64,000 nt of DNA from Ornithodoros turicata (taxonomy: Eukaryota; Arthropoda; Arachnida; Ixodida; Argasidae). The notes beneath the pieces were generated by a model, which saw only the letters and a list, made by a program, of their open reading frames with translations, searched no databases and was not told the DNA's origin. Position numbers and translations under genes: made by a program. Below are positions 3,561-61,299 of this stretch, one piece after another. The stretch is from positions 126,122,123-126,186,122 of the forward strand of contig NC_088202.1 in NCBI RefSeq assembly GCF_037126465.1. Reading direction: 5' to 3'. The stretch's first letter is position 1; every line of letters starts with the position of its first letter.

Positions 3561-4439
3561 CCGTGGTCAAATGATGGCAACTTCCACTCGAACGGTTTGA
3601 GATTGTTACCTGTCCGTGCATATGAGATTAATTTAGATCAGACAGGAAAAGAAAGAAACAAGATGAGATTTTTTTACGGTATTTACGGTATTTCTCTTTT
3701 CTTATTTTTCTCCTGACACTGGTCACAACTGGCTATTCCGACCAACTGTCAAATAAGGTACCTCCATTCCCGATGATGGCTCAGCTGTTCGATCATGTAG
3801 GGTTTCGTATTGACAAAATCACAAAACCAGCCACGATAACTGTGAACGTATATAGCAATAGTGGTTTACATGTTCGTAGACGTGTTTTATTTTGCTCCAT
3901 GTGTTTTCATTATGCATATGTGTGCTGCATTGTTCAGTGTGTCATTGACTTGTTGTGTTATTTGATTATTATAATTCACACTGTTCTGAAAGTGTTCTTC
4001 TCGAGTTGAGAAAAATGACATGCGTGTTTATTTGGTGCGCGATACGGTGTTGTGATGAACTGTGCATCTGGGTCTGGCATGCATGCTGTAGCTCGCACTG
4101 CGATATCCGTGTTTGCATGATTTCGTCTATAGCAGTGTGAAGTTGGATCTTTATGTTTGAATACATGGGTATTTGTCAATTTCTTTAGCACTGGTCTGGA
4201 CTGACTACGTAAAATGATTGATTTCAGATTTCAGATTTATTTGCTAAAACAATATGGTACAAGAGTTTACAGTTTACATATAGAGGTCCCATATTGCTTC
4301 ATATATTCCTGTATTGGCGAACCTATGTTAGTATGAGCACTTTCCGTAATACCATATTTCGTTGGATGCTGACTCTTGACTTGATACAAACAATTATGCG
4401 TTCTCGCCCTTACGTTTCGAAGTGACAGTCGTGCACATG
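3561..4439. other. Unassigned non-coding DNA
   Basis: No gene or known repeat is recognised. Short frames occur on both strands around 3,770-4,190, but they overlap each other and lack motifs. Confidence 0.4.
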
Positions 4440-4654
4440 TACAGGGTGTTTGCTCTAACTTATCCAGAAATTTTATTTAAAGTGAGCCATAAAAGAGAAA
4501 CGAGCGCTACTTTTCAGCTACTTGACTAAGAAGAAGGTGCTACTAGTGAAGCAGTACCTGTTTCTTACTCAAGTAGCAGAAAAGTACCACTTGCTTTTCT
4601 TTTATTGCTCGCTTTAAATATAATTTCTGGACACGTTAGAGCAAACACCCTGTA
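4440..4654. mobile_element. TA-flanked foldback MITE (CAGGGTG ends)
   Basis: The element begins TACAGGGTGTTTGCTCTAAC and ends with the reverse complement, GTTAGAGCAAACACCCTGTA. The arms continue inward for about 90 bp with few mismatches, so nearly the whole 215 bp folds into one hairpin. TA dinucleotides at both ends fit the target duplication of Tc1/mariner-type elements. There is no transposase, so it is non-autonomous. It shares its CAGGGTG terminus with the elements at 8.4, 13.2, 17.2 and 28.8 kb, although the internal sequences differ. Confidence 0.8.
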
Positions 4655-5729
4655 TGTGTCCGAACGCTCGCACAGGCACTTTACAGAGGTAAATCTATAG
4701 TTCTCAAACATCCATATAGTTACCTTTCCTGACCAGCGTATAGGAACGTAACTTTTGAAGAGCCCTATGTGGATATTATGTGTGCTTGATGATTGATATG
4801 ATATTATTATATATTATATATATTATATATATATATCATTGATGATATGATATTTGGCGTGCAGATGTCTATGCATTTATGCACAGTGATCACCTCCTAT
4901 AGTGTGTATGTCATATGTTTACGCATGTGTGTTTGTATGTGAGCAGCAGGCTGCAGCTTGTAGGTACCAATCTCTTCTTCTTTTTTTTTTTTTTGTCTCT
5001 GACATCCAACTATCCATAAAAGAAACAAAAAGCTTTAAACTGGTCGGCTCCTTAGCTCCAAGTTAAATGTGACGAATAAAGGGTACTACGTTTCCCACCC
5101 TCCCTTCTTTCTTTTTCTTTTTTTTTTTCAGGTTACATATTGCGCATGAAACTGTTACCTACGTTGCTCTCACGACGCACTGGTTATCTCTGAGTGATCC
5201 AATTCAGGGGACAAATTATTTTCTCAAGGAGCATATCAGGAAGGCACATATATGCCCACTTAATGTGTTCTCATAGCTGTCTGGTCTTGCTTTTATTGGC
5301 GTTACGCTTGAACAGGTTGTGCTGCAACTTTGTTGTGTGATGTATGGCAAGGCATAGGCACATTTCAGTTGACTCGATGAAGCAGATGATCACGCGAATT
5401 TCACACCTTTGCGAACGTAGGTATGTCTGTCTTAGCCATGAGTTAATAAATATAACAAAGCACGCAATGTTTGCATTACCAGTGATCGCACTAGCACTGC
5501 CCACGTATATGAATTGTATATGTATGTTTAACATCTTCATGCAGTTTGACTAGCACAAAGTACTTCTCGACCTCATTACTAGTTATTTACGATGTTAGGT
5601 CGCATGTCTTGCATTTGGCGTTAGCACGTGGTGCAGTTCGCAATGTGTTTCTTCAAGTACACTCGCAACCGCTCGAAGGAATGAAATAGTGAACATAGAA
5701 GTAAAATGCAAGCGAGCTGGTGTAGTATA
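4655..5729. other. Unassigned DNA with TA-rich and poly-T tracts
   Basis: The stretch has a TA-rich microsatellite at about 4795-4840, a poly-T run near 4980-4995 and a pyrimidine tract near 5105-5130. I recognise no gene. Confidence 0.45.
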
Positions 5730-5887
5730 CTTGACGTTAGCAACATGTCCCTGAGCTTGGGGGAAGGACAAAACACAAAAACGAGCAGCACAAGACAAGG
5801 ACTATCGAGCCTTGTCTTATGCTGTTCGATTTTGTGTTTTGTCTTTTGTCCTTCCCCCAAGCTCAGGGACATGTTGCCAACGTCAAG
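5730..5887. repeat. 158-bp palindrome, probably Penelope-like end
   Basis: The left arm (CTTGACGTTAGCAACATGTC) is repeated as its reverse complement at the right (GACATGTTGCCAACGTCAAG). The arms meet near 5810. The adjoining left 30 nt could be a tail like those of the palindromes at 6.2, 22.8 and 59.0 kb. I could not find a target-site duplication here, so the assignment to Penelope-like elements is inferred from style alone. Confidence 0.6.
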
Positions 5888-47217: not shown

Positions 47218-47625
47218 TTACCCGTGATATAAAACCAAGTACACGCAGGAAGGACACATGTTGATGAAACCGTAGAACGTTATCACAAGAAGTACGTCAA
47301 GATCACGTATAACATTCACTCTAGTAGTTATAGTGGCATCGGTGAGTTTATAGTCAAAACACAACAGATCATGTTTTCTAGAAAAAGAAATCGCCTTTGT
47401 CTTCGTTTGATTTAAGGAAATGTCGTTTCGTGTAATCGACAGAACATCAGATTGCAATCGCACACAATCATCAAGACAACTGACACGACGAAGCAGATTA
47501 ATATTATCGGCGTATATTAGAATATAGAAGTTCTTAACTGGACACACAACGTCATTAACAAAAATTAAGAACGATAGCTGTCGTAAAGTGCTGCCATACG
47601 GTACACCAACAACCAGACAAACAAC
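47218..47625 (-). pseudogene. LINE reverse transcriptase fragment, inactive
   Basis: On the minus strand an uninterrupted frame contains GVPYGSTLRQLSFLIFVND, matching the GVPQGSxLxPLLFxIFxND block of non-LTR reverse transcriptases. About 20 residues later it has ILIYADNINLL, the catalytic box that should read YADD or FADD. It continues with DDCVRLQSDVLSITR and LNQTKTKAISFSRK, the block after the active site, and ends near LVLYHG. The second catalytic Asp is Asn and the Gln of GVPQG is Tyr, so polymerase activity is lost. Upstream and downstream domains are absent. It is most like CR1/Jockey-group LINEs (inference). Confidence 0.85.
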
Positions 47626-50600
47626 CAGAGACACGAACAGTACTGCGTCCATGAGACTAATAACTTTCAAACCATTTGCAAGATGCAGATGCAATGCAGA
47701 AGATGCACCTTGCCGATTTGCAGGGTGCATTTGCATTTGCAAGATGAAGAAGATAAACCGTAGACAGAGAGTTTATATAACGACAATAGGTCGCTGACCC
47801 TGTCAAACGGTTTTGAGACAATTACACAGGCTTTTGAGACAAATAGACAGAAAAACAGGCAACATCCACTTGGCCACGAGCAGAAACGAAAGGAGCAACA
47901 GTCTGAGTTGTTTTGGTCCTATACATAGATCCGTGCGAAATGGAAAACGATAAGAATTCATTCCTAATAATTCATGTTTTTAGAACTTTCCTTTATATAG
48001 GTCCTTCGTTATTATTGATTTGTTTCTGTTTTGCGCGCGACAAAAGGACCTGCTATTCCATGCAGTTTCTCTTCATTACTTCTCTTATATCATTTTGGCT
48101 CTCTCACAGAGGCAGACAAAGAGGGAAAGAGAGAGAGACAGAGCGGGGAAAGATTCACAAGCCCCTCCACGACGTCTGTCGTTGAGTCGATAAATTATTT
48201 GGTATAGAACAGCAACAGCAACAACAACAACATCTACATGTATGGCGATGGTATGCGGTGTATAGAGCAACAACAACAATAAATGAAGGAGAAGTGATGA
48301 TGACGTGGTGGTGTACAGAAGATTAATCGCAAAGTATACAAACTTCGCTCGTGCTTCACATCGAGTAACTTGATATCGTGCATACCAAGCTTCTATTAAA
48401 TCAACCTTGATTGATCAAAATCCATGATTGAAACTCTCGGGACAACACGAGAAGGTAAACAAGGATAACAAAACAATGGCCAGGATTTGATCTCAATAAC
48501 AACAGCAGAGTCTGACTTTGTCGTGAATTAAATCCCCACTTTTCCCTTTTTCTATCACATCACATCACAATAGCAACAGCACTATCGTTAAGTTGTTCTT
48601 TCACGTTGAATTCCCGTGTAGTGCGACACATTGCAATTCTGTAAGCCATTACGCTTTCTAATTACACCCGAGAGCCCCGTGTTCGCGTCCATTCTGAAAA
48701 TAAATGATGTCACATAGATTCACTACAAACTTTGCCTGACGAATGCAGAATCGAAACAACGAACAAGAGCAAAAGTATAAACGTGACGAAGCGCTTATCT
48801 GACCGCATAAATTAGTTCCAATCCGTTACGCACGCATATTCTTAAACTCTGCGTCGAGGCAAGGGTGCAAAGTGCGGCGTCCGCTTCCGTTTCGAGGGAA
48901 CACGATAAGGCTTCCGTGGTTGTGGTGTGTCTATGTCCGCACATCTGCACTTTTACAACGTTTTAATGCGCGCTATAAAACGGCGCCCACCTCCTCCTTA
49001 CCCAGCATGGATTCGCTAGACCGACGCTACCTTTCCTGTCTTTCACGATGTAGAGCAATAGTACAGTGCCACATTAAACGTTCCGACACATCCGTCACCT
49101 GATAACAGAGCGCTCTGTTGTTCATCAGAACGTTCATGCCGCAGTATGCACGGCGCGTAATTAGCAGGAAACTCTCGCTGATGTGAGATGGGTTGACGGA
49201 AAGTGGCTCAAATGGCTTAGGGGTGGAAAAGCTGGGCAAGTTAATAATAAACCCTGTTACATATTCAAGAGGAACGCGCGGTGGGCCCGCGATGAAAAAT
49301 TAACGGTATATTTTACGTACTTGCGCACTCAATACGCGAAGTGTCCTCTTAAGAAGTTTAGAGCTTCGACGTTAGTACTGTGTATTTTGTTACCTGCGTG
49401 GTGTTTGGTGTCTTCTGTAGTGCTCTGTTTCCAGTAAATTTTCCGTCAATCTCATTTTGTTGCAGCCAGGTCTCCACGAAATTACTGAATTGATTACAAA
49501 TGGCCTCCTGTATACGCAGCAGGACTGTGCGAATTCTGCATTTTTTCTAATACCGAAGCGAGTAAGTTACGTATCCGATTCGAAGCGAACATGGAATTCG
49601 ATATTCGAATTTTGAGTCGAAGCCGTCTCTTCAAAAAGGAATGTATTAGAATAGCGAAGATAGAAAGAGTTCCGAAGCTGGTCACGTAAGGCTGAAGACG
49701 ACACAAGACATGGTAGCACAACAAAGTGGGCCCTGCTTCATGTGTAGATCCGTATGTATATACGTACATGCCAGCGATGTGGATTTGGCGGCACAAATCG
49801 GGGCGGGGGGGATATGTTTAATGCTCAATAAAAAAAGAAAAAGAAGGAAAAAAATCGGATTCAGATCGTATCTCTGTATTACCGACAAACCACTTGTGTC
49901 GTCAAATCAAAACACTTTGAATCCTGATTTTTATTTTCTACGTTGCATCAAATGCCTTTTAAAATCCGAATTTATCAAGATGGTGCTGGTGATGTGTTAA
50001 AGAAAAAAATCAAATAGAATTCATCAAATCCGCCGCCAAATCCGAAATGTCGGCTCCCTGGGACTCCCCATATGAAAAACAGAAAAATCTAGGAATGGCT
50101 TCGAGGTGTAAAAATGACTCGGTGTCCGTTACTATTATACGAATATCTCCGACAAAAAGTAGCGGTGCATGCAGTAGGCATCTCAACTCGTACCTAGAGA
50201 AACGAACAATGAACAATAATAGGCTAATTGGGAGCTCAATGAGAGGGACGACGTAACTGGAATGTTAATGTCTAAAAGCGTAGAATGTGATGGTATTCAT
50301 AAAATAGAAATAACAACGTATCGCGCTTCAGGAACACCTGCCTCCCTCATCCTTTATAATGGTATAGACGGCGTTTGTTCTTGTTCGATAGTATTTTTTT
50401 TTTTAAATCAAAATCTATACTGTCTTGCGAGCGGGTTATACTAGCCTTGCGGCCATTGTTCGTAAGAGAGTATGCCCTTCTGACTCCAGAGGTCGAATAG
50501 GGTGCACCTTAAAAAGGTGTGCTTTTATGTTTTCCTCCAGGGTCACGAAATACAGCTGGAAACAGGTTGAATAGTATCGAAAAAGGATTACCATGCTCTC

Positions 50601-53925: not shown

Positions 53926-54253
53926 AATGTACAGTAAAGTACTGGTCACGTGCAGAGTAAATTTAGTCTGTATCGATTGCATTACACAGTCCCTTTTGGT
54001 GGGGACAGAATGTGCGAAGTAGAAAGGCACAGACCAAACGGCGAGTAATTTTGTTTAGGTTGGCATTTTTTGTATTGCATTAAATTATTGTATTGTATTA
54101 AATGTACAGTAAAGTACTGGTCACGTGCAGAGTAAATTTAGTCTGTATCGATTGCATTACACAGTCCCTTTTGGTGGGGACAGAATGTGCGAAGTAGAAA
54201 GGCACAGACCAAACGGCGAGTAATTTTGTTTAGGTTGGCATTTTTTGTATTGC
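53926..54253. repeat. Exact 175-bp tandem duplication
   Basis: The segment from 53,926 is repeated from 54,101, an offset of 175 bp. The 153 bp shared (starting AATGTACAGTAAAGTACTGG) appear identical by eye. The 22-bp linker is AT-rich. An identical tandem pair is either a recent duplication or an assembly artefact. It lies immediately outside the giant inverted-repeat element. Confidence 0.85.
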
Positions 54254-54284
54254 CAGAAGCTTGACGAAGCTCGACTACAGTATT

Positions 54285-54490
54285 CGTCGCTCATTTTAAT
54301 CCATTGGTCACTGAATTTGTACCCTGCGCTACCCAATTTAATCCATGGATCAACCAACTTAACCAAAGCGCTATCTAATGTAGTCCCCAAGCGTTATCAA
54401 GTTAAATCCATCGGTCAACCAATTTAATACAAGTGCACATAATTGTATAATCCAGCTTTTAATGACTGCAATAACGATGCAAATATCAGG
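54285..54490 (-). repeat. Left inverted flank of satellite element
   Basis: The outer edge is CGCTCATTTTAATCCATTGG. Its reverse complement, diverged at roughly one base in five, occurs at 61,300-61,472. The shared tracts include TTAAATTGGGTAGC/TTAAATTGAGTAGC, CAGTGACCAATGG and ATATTTGCA. Similarity extends for roughly 190 bp with gaps. It lies just left of the satellite array. Confidence 0.65.
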
Positions 54491-55320
54491 ATTACTGCCT
54501 TACTCCTACTCGGCTTTTTATGCTGAGACTCTAAACGTTGTAACAGCGTTATTCATGACCACTGTCGTCATTATGACTTCGTGACTATTTCTACGACACT
54601 GTTATAACTTCCATTTGTGCAGTAAACAGGTTTCAAACAGTGTCCTATACGGTGTTTTATGCTACTGTTGGTCATTATGACATTTCATGACTATTTTCAT
54701 GATATGTCTCACAATTCGCCTTTCGCTAACTACCTCTGCATATGGTCCAGACAGTATCATACGGCGTTTTATGACCACTGCTGGTCATTTTGACATTTCA
54801 TGACTACCTTCATGATAGTCTCATAATTCGCCTTTCGCTCAGTACCCATGCACATGGTTCAAACAGTGTCATACGGCGTTTTATCACCACTGCTGTTCAT
54901 TACGGCATTTCAACACCATTGTTATGACCCGTCTCACAATTCGCCTTTCGCTCACAACTACTGCATATGGTTCAGACGTGTCATACGGCGTTTTATCCCC
55001 ACCGCTAGTCATTATGACATTTGATGAGTATTTTCATGATACATCTCATAATTTGCCTTTCGCCTCTAGTCCAAGCAGTGTCATACGGCGTTTTATCACC
55101 ATGGCTGGTTCTTATGACAGCTCATGACTATTTTCATGACACGTCTCATAATTCGCCTTTAGCTCACTACCCCTGCATATGGTCCAAGAAGTGTCATATG
55201 GCGTTTTATAACCACTGCAGGTCATTATGACATTTCATTACTATTTTCATTACACGTCTTATAATCCGCCATTCGCTCACTACAACTGATTGAAGCAGTG
55301 TCATACGACGTTTTATGACC

Positions 55321-55470
55321 TCTTCGCATCTCCACCCTTCATCCTCTATCCTACATCGGTCTTTCATTTTTTTTTTTTTTTGCTATAGTCGTGACGACGC
55401 CCACTTCTGTGTGGCCAACAACGACGGTCCGACCTTGCCATTCATTACCCCCCCACACACACACGCACAC
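55321..55470. mobile_element. 150-bp insertion inside a satellite monomer
   Basis: The monomer is interrupted after GTTTTATGACC and resumes at GACCACTGCTGG, leaving GACC on both sides as a possible 4-bp duplication. The insert has a T-run at 55,369-55,381 and a CA microsatellite at its right end. No family is recognised. Confidence 0.55.
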
Positions 55471-56212
55471 GACCACTGCTGGACATTACATTTCATAACC
55501 ATTGTCAGGATATGACTCATAAATTGTCCTTCGCTCACTACCCCTGGTTTCAGCAGTATCATACGGCGTTTTATCACCACTGGTGGTCATTATGACATTT
55601 CATGGCTCCACGACACGTCTCATAATTCACATTTCGCTCGCAACCCCTGGTTCAGAGACTACCGTACGGCGTTTCTTCACCACCCCTGTTCATTATGACA
55701 TTTCATGACTGCCTTCATGCTAAGTCTCATAATTCGAATTTCGCTCACTACCCCTGGTTCAAGCATGCCGTGTCATACGGCGTTTTATCACCACTGCTGG
55801 TCATTATCACATTTCATGACTATATTCGTGATACGTCTCATAATTCGCCTTTCGCCCCTGGTTCAAACAGTGTCTAGGCGTTTTATCGCCACTGCGGGTC
55901 ATTATTACACTTCATGACTATTTTCATGATAATTCGACTTTCGCTTACTACCGCTGCATACGGTTCAGAGAGTGTCATACGACGTTTTATGACCACTGCT
56001 GGTCATTCTGGCATTGCATGACGATTTTAATGATATGTCTCCTAATTCGCCTTTTCCTCACTACTCCTGCTTTAAACGGTGTCATACGGCATTTTATCAC
56101 CACTGCTGGTCATTATGGCAGTTCGTGACTGTTTTCATCGTAGGTCCCATAATTCCTCTATCCCGCCTGGTTCAAACATGTCTACGGCGTTTTATTACCA
56201 CTGCTGGTCATT

Positions 56213-58753
56213 ATGACACTTCATGACTATTTTCATGATACCTCTCATAATTCGTCTTTCGCTCACTACCGCTGCATACGGTTCAAAGAGTGTCATACGG
56301 CGTTTTATGACCACTGCTGGTCATTATGGCAGTTCGTGACTGTTTTCATCGTAGGTCCCATAATTCCTCTATCGCCCCTGGTTCAAACATGTCTACGGCG
56401 TTTTATTACCACTGCTGGTCATTATGACACTTCATGACTATTTTCATGATACCTCTCATAATTCGTCTTTCGCTCACTACCGCTGCATACGGTTCAAAGA
56501 GTGTCATATGGCGTTTTATGACCACTGCTGGTCATTATGGAATTTCATGACGATTTTCTTGATATGTCTGATAATTCGCCTCTTCCTCACTACTCCTGCT
56601 TTAAACGGTGCGATACGGCATTTTATCACCACTGCTGGTCATTATGGCAGTTCGTGACTGTTTTCATCGTAGGTCCCATAATTCCTCTATCACGCCTGGT
56701 TCAAACATGTCTACGGCGTTTTATTACCACTGCTGGTCATTATGACACTTCATGACTATTTTCATGATACCTCTCATAATTCGTCTTTCGCTCACTACCG
56801 CTGCATACGGTTCAAAGAGTGTCATACGGCGTTTTATGACCACTGCTGGTCATTATGGAATTTCATGACGATTTTCTTGATATGTCTGATAATTCGCCTT
56901 TTCCTCACTACTCCTGCTTTAAACGGTGCGATACGGCATTTTATCACCACTGCTGGTCATTATGGCAGTTCGTGACTGTTTTCATCATAGGTCCCATAAT
57001 TCCTCTATCCCGCCTGGTTCAAACATGTCTACGGCGTTTTATTACCACTGCTGGTCATTATGACACTTCATGACTATTTTCATGATACCTCTCATAATTC
57101 GTCTTTCGCTCACTACCGCTGCATACGGTTCAAAGAGTGTCATACGGCGTTTTATGACCACTGCTGGTCATTATGGCAGTTCGTGACTGTTTTCATCGTA
57201 GGTCCCATAATTCCTCTATCGCCCCTGGTTCAAACATGTCTACGGCGTTTTATTACCACTGCTGGTCATTATGACACTTCATGACTATTTTCATGATACC
57301 TCTCATAATTCGTCTTTCGCTCACTACCGCTGCATACGGTTCAAAGAGTGTCATATGGCGTTTTATGACCACTGCTGGTCATTATGGAATTTCATGACGA
57401 TTTTCTTGATATGTCTGATAATTCGCCTTTTCCTCACTACTCCTGCTTTAAACGGTGCGATACGGCATTTTATCACCACTGTTGGTCATTATGGCAGTTC
57501 GTGACTGTTTTCATCGTAGGTCCCATAATTCCTCTATCACGCCTGGTTCGAACATGTCTACGGCGTTTTATTACCACTGCTGGTCATTATGACACTTCAT
57601 GACTATTTTCATGATACCTCTCATAATTCGTCTTTCGCTCACTACCGCTGCATACGGTTCAAAGAGTGTCATACGGCGTTTTGTGACCACTGCTGGTCAT
57701 TATGGAATTTCATGACGATTTTCTTGATATGTCTGATAATTCGCCTTTTCCTCACTACTCCTGCTTTAAACGGTGCGATACGGCATTTTATCACCACTGC
57801 TGGTCATTATGGCAGTTCGTGACTGTTTTCATCGTAGGTCCCATAATTCCTCTATCCCGCCTGGTTCAAACATGTCTACGGCGTTTTATTACCACTGCTG
57901 GTCATTATGACACTTCATGACTATTTTCATGATACCTCTCATAATTCGTCTTTCGCTCACTACCGCTGCATACGGTTCAAAGAGTGTCATACGGCGTTTT
58001 ATGACCACTGCTGGTCATTATGGCAGTTCGTGACTGTTTTCATCGTAGGTCCCATAATTCCTCTATCGCCCCTGGTTCAAACATGTCTACGGCGTTTTAT
58101 TACCACTGCTGGTCATTATGACACTTCATGACTATTTTCATGATACCTCTCATAATTCGTCTTTCGCTCACTACCGCTGCATACGGTTCAAAGAGTGTCA
58201 TATGGCGTTTTATGACCACTGCTGGTCATTATGGAATTTCATGACGATTTTCTTGATATGTCTGATAATTCGCCTTTTCCTCACTACTCCTGCTTTAAAC
58301 GGTGCGATACGGCATTTTATCACCACTGCTGGTCATTATGGCAGTTCGTGACTGTTTTCATCGTAGGTCCCATAATTCCTCTATCACGCCTGGTTCGAAC
58401 ATGTCTACGGCGTTTTATTACCACTGCTGGTCATTATGACACTTCATGACTATTTTCATGATACCTCTCATAATTCGTCTTTCGCTCACTACCGCTGCAT
58501 ACGGTTCAAAGAGTGTCATACGGCGTTTTATGACCACTGCTGGTCATTATAGAATTTCATGACGATTTTCTTGATATGTCTGATAATTCGCCTTTTCCTC
58601 ACTACTCCTGCTTTAAACGGTGCGATACGGCATTTTATCACCACTGCTGGTCATTATGGCAGTTCGTGACTGTTTTCATCGTAGGTCCCATAATTCCTCT
58701 ATCACCCCTGGTTCAAACATGTCTACGGCGTTTTATTACCACTGCTGGTCATT
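56213..58753 (+). repeat. Three 847-bp higher-order repeats
   Basis: Copies span 56,213-57,059, 57,060-57,906 and 57,907-58,753. Each contains eight monomers with the spacing order 113, 98, 113, 107, 98, 113, 107, 98 (sum 847). Equivalent positions in the three copies are nearly identical by eye, while neighbouring monomers differ clearly. That is the signature of recent unequal exchange on an 8-mer. Confidence 0.9.
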
Positions 58754-58996
58754 ATGACATTTCATTACTATTTTCATGATACGGCGCATAATTCGACTTT
58801 TGCTCGCTACCCCTGGTTCAAGCAGTGCCATACGGCGTTCTATGACTACTGCTGGTCATTATGACAGTTCATGACTATTTTCATGATGCGTCTCATAATT
58901 GGCCTTTCGCTCACTACCCCTGGTTTAAGAAGAGTAATACAGCGTTTTATCACCACTGCTGGCCATTATGACATTTCATGAGTATTTTCATGATAC

Positions 58997-59180
58997 GTCT
59001 CATAACTCAAAGCAAAAAAACGGGCGTGTTGGTGTTGATCTTACACGATGAACTTGCACTTGGGACGGGACAGAGAGAAGAGACGATAGGACAGGTGCAG
59101 GACAGGACTAGTACCTGTCCTGTCGTCTCTTCTCTCTGTCCCGTTCCCAGTGCTAGATCATCATGCAAGGTCTCATAATT
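58997..59180. mobile_element. Palindromic insertion in the satellite
   Basis: The satellite is interrupted at 59,008-59,169 and flanked by GTCTCATAACT / GTCTCATAATT (11 bp, one mismatch). A 31-nt one-sided tail (59,008-59,038) precedes inverted arms built around GGGACGGGACAGAGAGAAG and its diverged complement, meeting near 59,110. The architecture matches the Penelope-like insertions at 6.2 and 22.8 kb. Confidence 0.65.
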
Positions 59181-59537
59181 AGTCTTTTGCTCACTACCCC
59201 TGCATATGATTCAAACAGTGTCATAAGGAGTATTATGATCTCTGCTGGTCATTATGACATTTCGCGACTATTTTCATGATACGTCTCATAATTCGCCTTG
59301 CGCTCACTAACCCTAGCTGGATCAAACAGTCTCTCATTGCGTTTTATCATCATTGCTGGTCGTATGACACTGCATGACTATTTTCACAGTACGTTTCATA
59401 ATTCACCTTTGGCTCACCACCCCTGGTTCAAACAGTGTCATACGGCGTTATATCATCACTGCTGCTCATTGCAGTTAAGAAGTATTTTCAAGATGCGTCT
59501 CATGACTCGCCTTTCTCTGATTACCCCTGTTTCAAAC

Positions 59538-60210
59538 GTAGACTTATGAGGCGCATCATGAAAGTGACCAGCAGTAATAATAACTCTATGACACTCTCTG
59601 AACCAGGGGTAAGACCCCAGAAAGGCGAAGAATGAAGCGTTCCATGAAAATAGCATAAAATGTAATAATCAGCAGCAGTCCTAAAACACCACATGACACT
59701 GTTAGAACCAGGAGTACTCACAGAAGGGCGAGTTATGAGAAATATGAAATGCAGCAATGACCAGCAGTATTCATAAAGCACTGCATGGCACTGTGTGAAT
59801 CAGGGGTAGTCACAGAAAGGTTGATTTTTTTATTCCGTGTTAGCGCCACGAAGCAACTGTAACTACGAGCGTCGTACAGACGTGGACAGGTAGAGAGAGG
59901 ACAGCAGGTAGGAATGGGGGACAGGGGGTTAGTATGCGTCCTGGGCCCACGTCAAGGGGAACCGCGCCTACATACGTCTGGAAAGACTGCCGGAAAACCC
60001 ACGAAAAATCTCAGACAGCGCAGCCGGCGGTATAGGACTCGAACGCGCCACCTCGCGGTCTTCAGCACGACCTTGGCTACCACCAGCGAGAGGACGTGTT
60101 AGCCCGCTCGGCCATGCTGCTGGCCAGAAAGATTATGAGAGGTTAAGGTGAAAGGGTTATGAGACGTGCCATGAAAATATTTATGAAATCATAATGGCCG
60201 ACAGTAATTA
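59538..60210 (-). repeat. Satellite in reverse orientation (split by SINE)
   Basis: From about 59,538 the monomers are the reverse complement of those to the left, for example CATGAAAATAGCATAAAATG, ACCAGCAGT, and GAACCAGGGGTA. About three monomers (59,538-59,819) are followed by the SINE and then a last partial monomer (60,125-60,210). The orientation flips between CCCCTGTTTCAAAC and GTAGACTTATGAGGCGC. Confidence 0.85.
59820..60124 (-). mobile_element. tRNA-derived SINE with 7-bp duplication
   Basis: Read on the minus strand, the head contains ATGGCCGAGCGGGCTAA, an A-box like that of Leu/Ser tRNAs, and GCGTTCGAGTCCTA, a B-box. Polymerase III promoters of this type drive SINE transcription (established). 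The body then runs to an A/T-rich end at 59,820 (AATAAAAAAATC). CAGAAAG at 59,813-59,819 and again at 60,125-60,131 is the target duplication, and the SINE sits inside a satellite monomer. A fragment of the same family is at 21,845. An alternative is a decayed tRNA gene, which the long body argues against. Confidence 0.8.
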
Positions 60211-60240
60211 TATATATATATATATATGTATATATATAAT
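60208..60240. repeat. TA microsatellite
   Basis: A (TA)n run with one interruption near 60,227, at the junction between the satellite and the hairpin that follows. Confidence 0.9.
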
Positions 60241-60352
60241 ACAGGAATAAAGCAATTAAAGAAACAAGTAAATGACACTAGACGTGTTTGAAGTTTCAAA
60301 CACGTCTAGTGTCATTTACTTGTTTCTTTAATAGCTTTTTTTTCCTGTATTA
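60238..60352. repeat. 115-bp near-perfect hairpin
   Basis: The arm AATACAGGAATAAAGC..., continuing with AAAGAAACAAGTAAATGACA, is mirrored at the right, and the arms meet in GTTTGAAGTTTCAAAC. It lies between a TA microsatellite and the hammerhead region. Penelope-like or MITE origin is not resolved. Confidence 0.75.
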
Positions 60353-60446
60353 TAATTCACTGGGTTGCACTGTGGCATTGAGTAGTGCTCAGTCCCCCTC
60401 CCAGGTGTATATCGCTCGCTGAGCGACCCCTGGTTTGCCAATTCCG

Positions 60447-60522
60447 AACGATGCGCAGCTACCCAGAGCTGACGAGCCGCAAACACGGCGAAACACGTGT
60501 CCTCTGGTGCTGTCGCATCGTT
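60447..60522 (+). ncRNA. Complete type I hammerhead ribozyme
   Basis: All elements are present in order. The outer helix is nine perfect pairs (AACGATGCG 60,447-60,455 with CGCATCGTT 60,514-60,522). An internal loop follows, then six pairs CCAGAG (60,463-60,468) with CTCTGG (60,502-60,507). The core boxes are CTGACGA (60,469-60,475) and GAAA (60,490-60,493). Helix II is GCCG/CGGC with loop CAAACA. Helix III is ACACGTGT with no loop, followed by the cleavable C at 60,501. Known animal Penelope and retrozyme hammerheads are type I with a minimal helix III and are thought to act as dimers, which fits. I infer self-cleavage of transcripts 3' of C60,501. Confidence 0.88.
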
Positions 60523-60528
60523 CCATGA

Positions 60529-60566
<38 letters not shown>
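60529..60566. repeat. TA microsatellite
   Basis: An uninterrupted (TA)n run between the hammerhead unit and the Penelope-like palindrome. It may have served as insertion target, since the palindrome is followed by another TA run at 61,037. Confidence 0.95.
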
Positions 60567-60569
<3 letters not shown>

Positions 60570-60656
60570 TATTCAATAAAGACCAGAAGTGGAGACGGTG
60601 CTTCTACAGGATAAGTAATAAAACGGGACTTTATTAAAAACTAAGAGGGGGTATTC

Positions 60657-60688
60657 GACGTTTCGACAGCAGCGCTGTCTTCAACAGG
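60657..60688 (-). ncRNA. Hammerhead-like hairpin, left arm
   Basis: This is the mirror image of 60,877-60,908. On the minus strand it reads CTGTTGA, an extra A, stem GACAG/CTGTC, GAAA and CGTC. Confidence 0.4.
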
Positions 60689-60876
60689 AATGGGATACTA
60701 TGGTGACGCAAAACAATTGCAAAGAATGAGAGGGGAATATGTACAAGGAGAGAGGGCAGCACACGTGCTTTGTCAAACAAAGGTTGTTTGACAAAGCACG
60801 TGTGCTGCCCTCTCTCCTTGTACATATTCCCCTCTCATTCTTTGCAATTGTTTTGCGTCACCATAGTATCCCATTC

Positions 60877-60908
60877 CTGTTGAAGACAGCGCTGCTGTCG
60901 AAACGTCG
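60877..60908 (+). ncRNA. Hammerhead-like hairpin, right arm
   Basis: The order is CTGTTGA (consensus CTGANGA, one change), an extra A, stem GACAG/CTGTC around CGCTG, intact GAAA, then CGTC. The extra base after the first box recurs in the 6.2- and 18.3-kb motifs. The extra base and lost A make activity uncertain. Confidence 0.45.
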
Positions 60909-61036
60909 AATACCCCCTCTTAGTTTTTAATAAAGTCCCCCTTTTATTACTTATCCTGTAGAAGCACCGTCTCCACTTCTGGTCTTTATTGAATACCTTT
61001 ATTTTTCGTGGTCAACCGCATTCGTTTATTTCAACT

Positions 61037-61064
61037 TATATATATATATATATATATATATATA
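61037..61064. repeat. TA microsatellite
   Basis: A (TA)n run immediately after the tail of the palindrome and before the second hammerhead-bearing segment. Confidence 0.95.
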
Positions 61065-61130
61065 GGTGGCACTGTCACAGTGGAACACTGATGTCTCGCC
61101 GAGACACACTGTTAGCGCCCACCTAAGATA

Positions 61131-61203
61131 GTGTCACTTCCCTGCGCCGCGCTGACGAGTTCCAAGTATAGAACGAAACAGCTGTCCTCGGCTGGGAGTG
61201 CAC
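61131..61203 (+). ncRNA. Second type I hammerhead ribozyme
   Basis: The core boxes CTGACGA (61,152-61,158) and GAAA (61,175-61,178) are intact. Helix II is GTTC/GAAC with loop CAAGTATA. Helix III is ACAGCTGT without a loop, followed by the cleavable C at 61,186. The inner helix I is GCCGCG with CTCGGC, one C-T mismatch. The outer helix pairs GTG, CAC and CCC tracts (61,131-61,142) with GGGAGTG and CAC (61,194-61,203) with two bulges. It is the same architecture as the copy at 60,447 but with different stem sequences, so the stems have co-varied or the copies belong to different subfamilies. Activity is plausible but less certain. Confidence 0.78.
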
Positions 61204-61299
61204 AATCAAATTATAAACATATGCTCCACGTGCAGCCACAGAGCTTTGGCTATTTTTCATTTGTATATTTTCTTATATATATGTCATAAAATATGAATC

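Follow-up and report, generated by a model that had tools for sequence, protein, structure and literature searches.

Which enzyme copies the retrozymes of animals has been an open question. The window, by which we mean the whole 64,000-nucleotide stretch of Ornithodoros turicata DNA that was analysed, contains two hammerhead ribozymes with a TA tract, a palindrome and a second TA tract between them (60530-61064; Table 1). We propose that the two ribozymes mark two retrozyme-like families that were likely copied into TA tracts by a Penelope-like element (PLE) of the same genome, which would supply both reverse transcriptase and endonuclease, a reading to which we would give a probability of roughly two in three. 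In the passages cited here and below, Cervera and de la Pena 2020 (PMC7229834) regard PLEs as strong candidate movers of retrozymes, on the grounds of co-occurrence, tandem arrangement and shared hammerheads, and a review (PMC7761336) likewise proposes them in this role. The finding of the same footprint for retrozymes and a PLE in one genome adds evidence at the level of the insertion junction.

Table 1. Coordinates of the hammerheads, repeat copies, TA tracts and palindrome arms in the window.
Feature	Position	Strand	Basis
TA tract with a single TG interruption, to the left of the inverted fragment of family A	60209..60238	.	
Fragment of family A in inverted orientation (unit 231-277), facing the 60287..60532 copy head to head	60245..60291	-	Inverted repeat
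Family A retrozyme-like copy, unit 223-288 then 1-178	60287..60532	+	
HHR1 plus outer helix I stem (10+4 bp), UAC/U internal loop	60446..60523	+	Fold z, HH9 model
HHR1, type I hammerhead ribozyme, family A	60463..60507	+	RF00163, 43.9 bits
TA tract common to family A 3' end and left PLE arm	60530..60567	.	
Left palindrome arm, inverted PLE 3' end, outer end = GAATACC site	60568..60780	-	98.6% to right arm
Right palindrome arm, PLE 3' end, outer end = TTTCAAC site	60784..61035	+	Genome matches
TA tract common to PLE 3' end and family B copy	61037..61064	.	
Family B retrozyme-like copy, unit 22-230 of 233, then short TA run	61064..61274	+	
HHR2, second type I hammerhead, family B	61146..61192	+	RF00163, 34.5 bits (cut-off 34)

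Two type I hammerheads in the window

A covariance-model search of the window placed HHR1 above the RF00163 gathering cut-off of 34 bits (E 5.7e-8). The invariant core (CUGANGA, GAA, an A-U pair and H17) is present in full, as CTGACGA at 60469-60475, GAA at 60490-60492, an A-U closing pair at 60493/60500 and C17 at 60501, and so are the three helices, with no mismatch in helix I (6 bp) or helix II (4 bp) and with ACACGTGT as helix III. Cleavage is predicted to occur after C60501. The first-pass annotation had described a complete type I hammerhead and had proposed a covariance-model check with RF00163; core, helices I and II and C60501 were all verified, and the check came out above the cut-off. 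The internal loop that it placed in helix I, and that may serve the tertiary contact with loop II, is likewise there, whereas the outer helix, given as nine pairs, in fact comprises 10+4 bp with a bulged U. The HH9 model (RF02275), which like RF00163 agrees with HHR1 in its core, its helices and the palindromic form of helix III, spans this outer stem with a score of 44.1 bits, under its cut-off of 52, and the Rfam membership of HHR1 is therefore RF00163 only. That HHR1 might be a lone chance motif is ruled out by its RF00163 score, by a z of -6.1 for the 83-nt fold around it (60444-60526) and by the recurrence of its 45 letters at 16 places in the fetched sequence, window included. The pattern of core plus helices had 0 matches in 20 random 64-kb sequences built with the dinucleotide frequencies of the window, and a scan of viral contigs for the letters of HHR1 gave none.

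Helix III had been singled out as a loop-less palindrome that would call for a dimeric transcript. The palindrome is real, but it is not unusual, as the RF00163 consensus has the same form, and the helix can be formed from 2 bp capped by a tetraloop; a requirement for a dimer is thus not established. When the monomers were constrained to the hammerhead fold, with helix III drawn in this closed form, they lay above the free minimum by 4.0 kcal/mol for HHR1 and 7.5 kcal/mol for HHR2; that the hammerhead is not the best fold of the HHR1 monomer speaks in favour of a dimer. So does a hammerhead of the axolotl whose helix III has 2 bp, and whose monomer cut only 22% in an hour while its dimer did better (PMC7229834). 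Against it, most invertebrate retrozyme hammerheads are reported to self-cleave efficiently (PMC7229834), the majority of them as monomers (PMC7761336).

The second hammerhead, HHR2, was absent from the first-pass annotation. One of the 6 positions of its helix I is unpaired, and its cleavage is predicted after C61186.

Two tandem repeat families of the host genome

Judged by their sequence, HHR1 and HHR2 belong to two non-coding, retrozyme-like tandem repeat families of the host genome, which we call A (unit 288 bp) and B (unit 233 bp). The search covered the window's own 1.07-Gb assembly, and the match counts are lower bounds. The surroundings of HHR1 (query 60356-60529) gave at least 41 matches, 40 of them long and at 92-100% identity, and the HHR2 region gave at least 337, with 88-92% identity among the matches listed, the window itself aside. 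The tandem copies that the first reading had suggested searching for were found in both families, family A units being spaced by about 288 bp in arrays. In the fetched stretches, family A comprises 123 units at 27 loci, with 1 to 28 units per locus and some arrays extending past the fetched stretch; family B includes a 12.6-kb array on C3.

Several features recommend a comparison with the metazoan non-LTR retrozymes of PMC7229834, which A and B look like. Both families carry a canonical type I hammerhead with a short palindromic helix III, in tandem units that fall within 150-450 bp and within the 170-400 nt described for those elements. Both occur as anything from single units to large arrays in a genome where PLEs are co-resident, and neither has coding capacity, the longest ATG frames in trimers of one unit each being 34 aa (A) and 36 aa (B). 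The predicted circular folds of the units reach -82.9 and -86.7 kcal/mol. The resemblance is one of features, and in base composition the two families part: one unit of family A has a GC content of 0.476, on the retrozyme side of 50%, whereas one unit of family B has 0.541, over the range stated for metazoan retrozymes. A dispersed repeat of more than 2.9 kb, seen at loci L007-L012, also holds two hammerhead segments that resemble family B and are separated by 141 bp (for example L009, 1360-1575); in L009 the core of the first is broken and that of the second intact.

Integrity and covariation of the ribozyme core

A pairing-filtered pattern recovered 161 hammerhead sites, 55 of them distinct, from the fetched sequence and 0 from 20 random 64-kb sequences. 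Helix II occurs among these as GTCC/GGAC, GTTC/GAAC, GCTC/GAGC, GGTC/GACC and GCCG/CGGC, and the variants of helix III include ACGGCCGT, ACAGCTGT and ACACGTGT. Pair counts from such sites are biased, as the sites were chosen by pairing, and compensatory changes were therefore counted without the filter. Family B then showed 68 compensatory cells against a shuffled mean of 51.6 and a maximum of 59 in 500 shuffles, a comparison that ignores kinship between copies; family A showed no excess, with 1 compensatory pair against a shuffled mean of 0.6.

The state of the core depends on the size of the family A locus. Of the 36 units at small loci (5 units or fewer), 30 have all 12 core positions intact, and 16 of the 20 small loci keep at least one unit with an intact core, whereas above 5 units the core is intact in 23 of 87. 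No stronger conservation of the core was seen over all 123 units, the core deviating more (0.061) than the rest (0.027 and 0.043), because the large arrays carry a U4 to C change; within the 36 units of the small loci the core deviates by 0.016 against 0.031 and 0.036 (P 0.08). The U4 to C change was present in all 28, 11 and 10 units seen at C2:36406074, C1:144833964 and C115:37240, respectively, and these arrays look as though dead family A units had been amplified locally.

Such arrays invite an explanation by ordinary satellite DNA, in which arrays grow by unequal exchange, TA tracts are recombination-prone edges and the ribozyme is a relic. The often broken core of the larger arrays, the lack of any better conservation of the core across the family as a whole and the length of the family B array on C3 all speak for it. 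What it does not provide is an insertion process, which is called for by the scattered small loci (one to five units) whose core is largely intact, and we consider it unlikely on this ground as well as on those given in the next section.

Polar contact of array ends with TA tracts

An array end was scored as in contact with TA when a TA run of at least 8 lay within 24 nt outward of it. Ends were tabulated by genome place, for arrays of at least 100 nt with ends more than 26 nt from the edge of the stretch and at loci other than L007-L012; the window background for such contact is 0.5%. By this measure 21 of 31 family A 3' ends meet a TA run, the corresponding count for 5' ends being 3 of 36 (P 4e-7 by Fisher's test). 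Many of the 5' ends assigned to unit position 1 reflect a break of the alignment in a homopolymer, and when all ends at that position are removed the 5' figure becomes 1 of 17 (P 4e-5). Family B has the same polarity in weaker form: 9 of 17 3' ends are on a TA run and 8 are without one, against 2 of 15 5' ends (P 0.03), and the contrast loses significance once the 5' ends assigned to unit position 1 are left aside (2/13, P 0.06).

The 3' ends are also few in kind. In family A, 13 of 31 lie at unit 170-186, 14 at 282-288 and 4 elsewhere. When distance is measured from the cleavage site, the interval +31 to +35 holds 10 of 31 family A ends and 4 of 17 family B ends, and three B ends lie at +26 without TA contact. 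Linear self-cleaved templates would have been signalled by 5' ends at the cleavage site, an expectation that was not borne out: within 5 nt of the site we found 0 of 36 5' ends in A and 1 of 15 in B.

Where neighbouring copies lay no more than 120 bp apart, their orientations were compared. Head-to-head pairs comprise 11 A-A, 4 B-B and 1 A-B, tail-to-tail pairs comprise 5 A-B and 2 A-A, with a TA run in every spacer, and 3 A-B pairs run in the same direction. The family A sequence of the window is itself a head-to-head foldback, formed by the inverted fragment and the forward copy of Table 1. Fixed 3' sites on (TA)n and head-to-head foldbacks are not described for retrozymes in the passages of PMC7229834 cited here. 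The small number of fixed 3' sites, the polar contact with TA and the foldbacks again call for an insertion process, which growth of a satellite by unequal exchange would not supply.

A Penelope-like element between the hammerheads

The palindrome between the two retrozyme-like copies is 440 nt long; its arms measure 161 nt (99% identity) and 78 nt (90%), and 3 nt separate the inner arms. Its right arm has at least 45 genome matches (40 of 811 candidates scored), 40 of them full-length at 98-100% identity, and shares its outer end with the PLE copy L081. Since the right arm matches the 3' end of this protein-coding copy, the palindrome is, on sequence grounds, best described as two inverted 3' ends of a PLE, which stop at alternative sites, the GAATACC site falling 38 nt short of the TTTCAAC site. 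L081 has an open frame of 917 aa with a reverse transcriptase domain above cut-off (RVT_1, E 2e-10) and a GIY-YIG match just under it (21.6 bits, cut-off 22.6; E 2.6e-4); the 66% relative P0001 passes the GIY-YIG cut-off with 25.8 bits. With this support, L081 combines the reverse transcriptase and C-terminal GIY-YIG that define a PLE in one frame. Among the best 120 of 1987 homologues the highest-ranking comes from Ornithodoros turicata (66%) and passes the GIY-YIG cut-off, and the seven named homologues that follow it in the list are from Ixodes, which points to a tick as the likely host; a search with PF02098, a tick marker, gave one weak match.

The PLE meets the same kind of target as the retrozyme-like families. 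We took 20 PLE 3' ends from the 40 full-length matches, so that the TTTCAAC site was preset by the query and not all ends are independent (L082/L084 and L095/L098 have like flanks); 18 of the 20 border a TA run of 8 nt or more, and for the remaining 2 the run is 7 nt. The start of L081 lies at a TA tract and carries 44 nt of the element's own 3' end in inverted form, beginning at the GAATACC site. Head-to-head PLE pairs were found in the window, on C17 and on C139, of which the latter two share a flank (L098, L095) and may be one event; close tail-to-tail pairs were found on C38 and C4. An exact pattern in which the 3' ends of a PLE and of a family A copy abut a common TA tract occurs at 3 places, with 0 in the reversed control.

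The PLE has a hammerhead-like motif of its own, which is minimal and core-changed in the copies seen (CTGTTGA...GAAACGTC in the window and L081). A search of L081 for family A or B sequence found none; the PLE is autonomous and coding, in contrast to A and B, and their hammerhead units are not in it. Near position 114 of L009, on the minus strand, there is a PLE-like end with an intact minimal hammerhead core (CTGACGA...GAAACGTC), unlike that of the window PLE, and further PLE-like ends lie close to retrozymes in the flanks of L029, L027 and L049.

Comparable behaviour is on record for Poseidon, a PLE of the lizard Anolis (PMC11167929). Its protein cuts and extends both strands and prefers AT-rich DNA, and its reverse transcription begins at two internal sites that delimit a tail of 30-40 bp. 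The two PLE 3' sites 38 nt apart, the TA tracts and the foldbacks of the tick PLE fit this behaviour, and both elements carry a hammerhead-like motif near their ends. Both-strand priming was seen in vitro for Poseidon.

A proposed model for retrozyme insertion

Retrozymes and PLE are found on the same TA tracts and in the same mirror-image shape, which makes the PLE the likely source of the copying enzyme. In the model that we propose, the family A and B repeats would be transcribed, the hammerhead would cut the multimeric transcripts, and the resulting RNA would be circularised or left multimeric. The PLE protein would then cut both strands of a TA tract and prime on the RNA from both sides by target-primed reverse transcription, with the two cDNAs meeting 5' to 5' to give head-to-head foldbacks. 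The window would record three such insertion events in a row, namely A'A, PLE'PLE and B. As the family A copy of the window crosses both the unit boundary and the ribozyme cleavage site, its template was probably a ligated circle or an uncleaved multimer, and likely not a linear self-cleaved monomer. Derivation of each locus from one circle was not borne out by shared variants: units were closer within the locus than to units outside it at 1 of 10 multi-unit small loci of family A, and tied at one more.

We infer the role of the PLE protein from this common footprint. The matching target, the fixed 3' sites and the foldback shape lend support, short of proof, to the view in the literature that retrozymes are mobilised by PLEs. 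The TA target alone is not specific to the PLE, as an unrelated repeat with TACAGGGTGTCCC-like ends also lies at TA-rich stretches (flanks of L031, L034, L037, L068, L069 and L081). A further point against the reading is that neither family turned up in L081, where it could have offered the PLE protein a sequence to recognise. Nor does that signal have to be the ribozyme, since the motif of the tick PLE is core-changed in the copies seen and the anole PLE still inserts when its ribozyme is mutated (PMC11167929).

An alternative source of the enzyme would be a LINE-type (APE) element, with the TA tracts merely a common AT-rich landing place. In favour of this idea, the window contains a frame at 47218-47772 that resembles a remnant of a LINE reverse transcriptase. 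LINEs are also named as candidates alongside PLEs in PMC7229834. The two 3' sites, the head-to-head foldbacks and the common TA tracts nevertheless fit the PLE of this genome, in a comparison that covered retrozyme and PLE copies, and mobilisation by a LINE seems to us improbable, to much the same degree as the satellite account.

That HHR1 is the PLE's own ribozyme, as part of a pseudo-LTR, was rejected as very improbable: a PLE end does lie 61 nt from HHR1, and hammerheads of the minimal type I form occur in PLEs (PMC7761336), but HHR1 sits in family A units, the PLE end and L081 bear the different motif given above, neither family is in L081, and most fetched retrozyme loci are without a PLE-arm match (matches in 6 of 80: L009, L021, L027, L029, L049 and L051). 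The early comparison with Penelope and retrozyme hammerheads accordingly holds for the world in which HHR1 is found and fails for HHR1 as the hammerhead of the PLE itself.

If copying by the PLE protein is taken a step further, retrozymes may stand to PLEs as SINEs stand to LINEs, a generalisation that we offer tentatively and at slightly less than even odds. The PLE protein would use retrozyme circles, would start at fixed sites tied to the hammerhead (with a cluster at 31-35 nt past cleavage in both families) and would prime from both TA strands, with foldbacks as the signature. Were this true, the large arrays with broken cores would be dead satellites left behind by PLE-retrozyme traffic. 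Two retrozyme-like families, an open PLE frame and TA targets together make up a system in which these ideas could be tested directly.

Other repeats in the window

Hairpin-like stretches at 4438-4656, 5763-5847 and 59037-59172 match Rfam miRNA models below cut-off on both strands, as would be expected of foldback repeats. A long array with spacings of mostly 98, 107 and 113 bp (CTGGTCATTATGACA...) and strong GC and AT skew occupies 54000-59550 and stops to the left of the retrozyme cluster.
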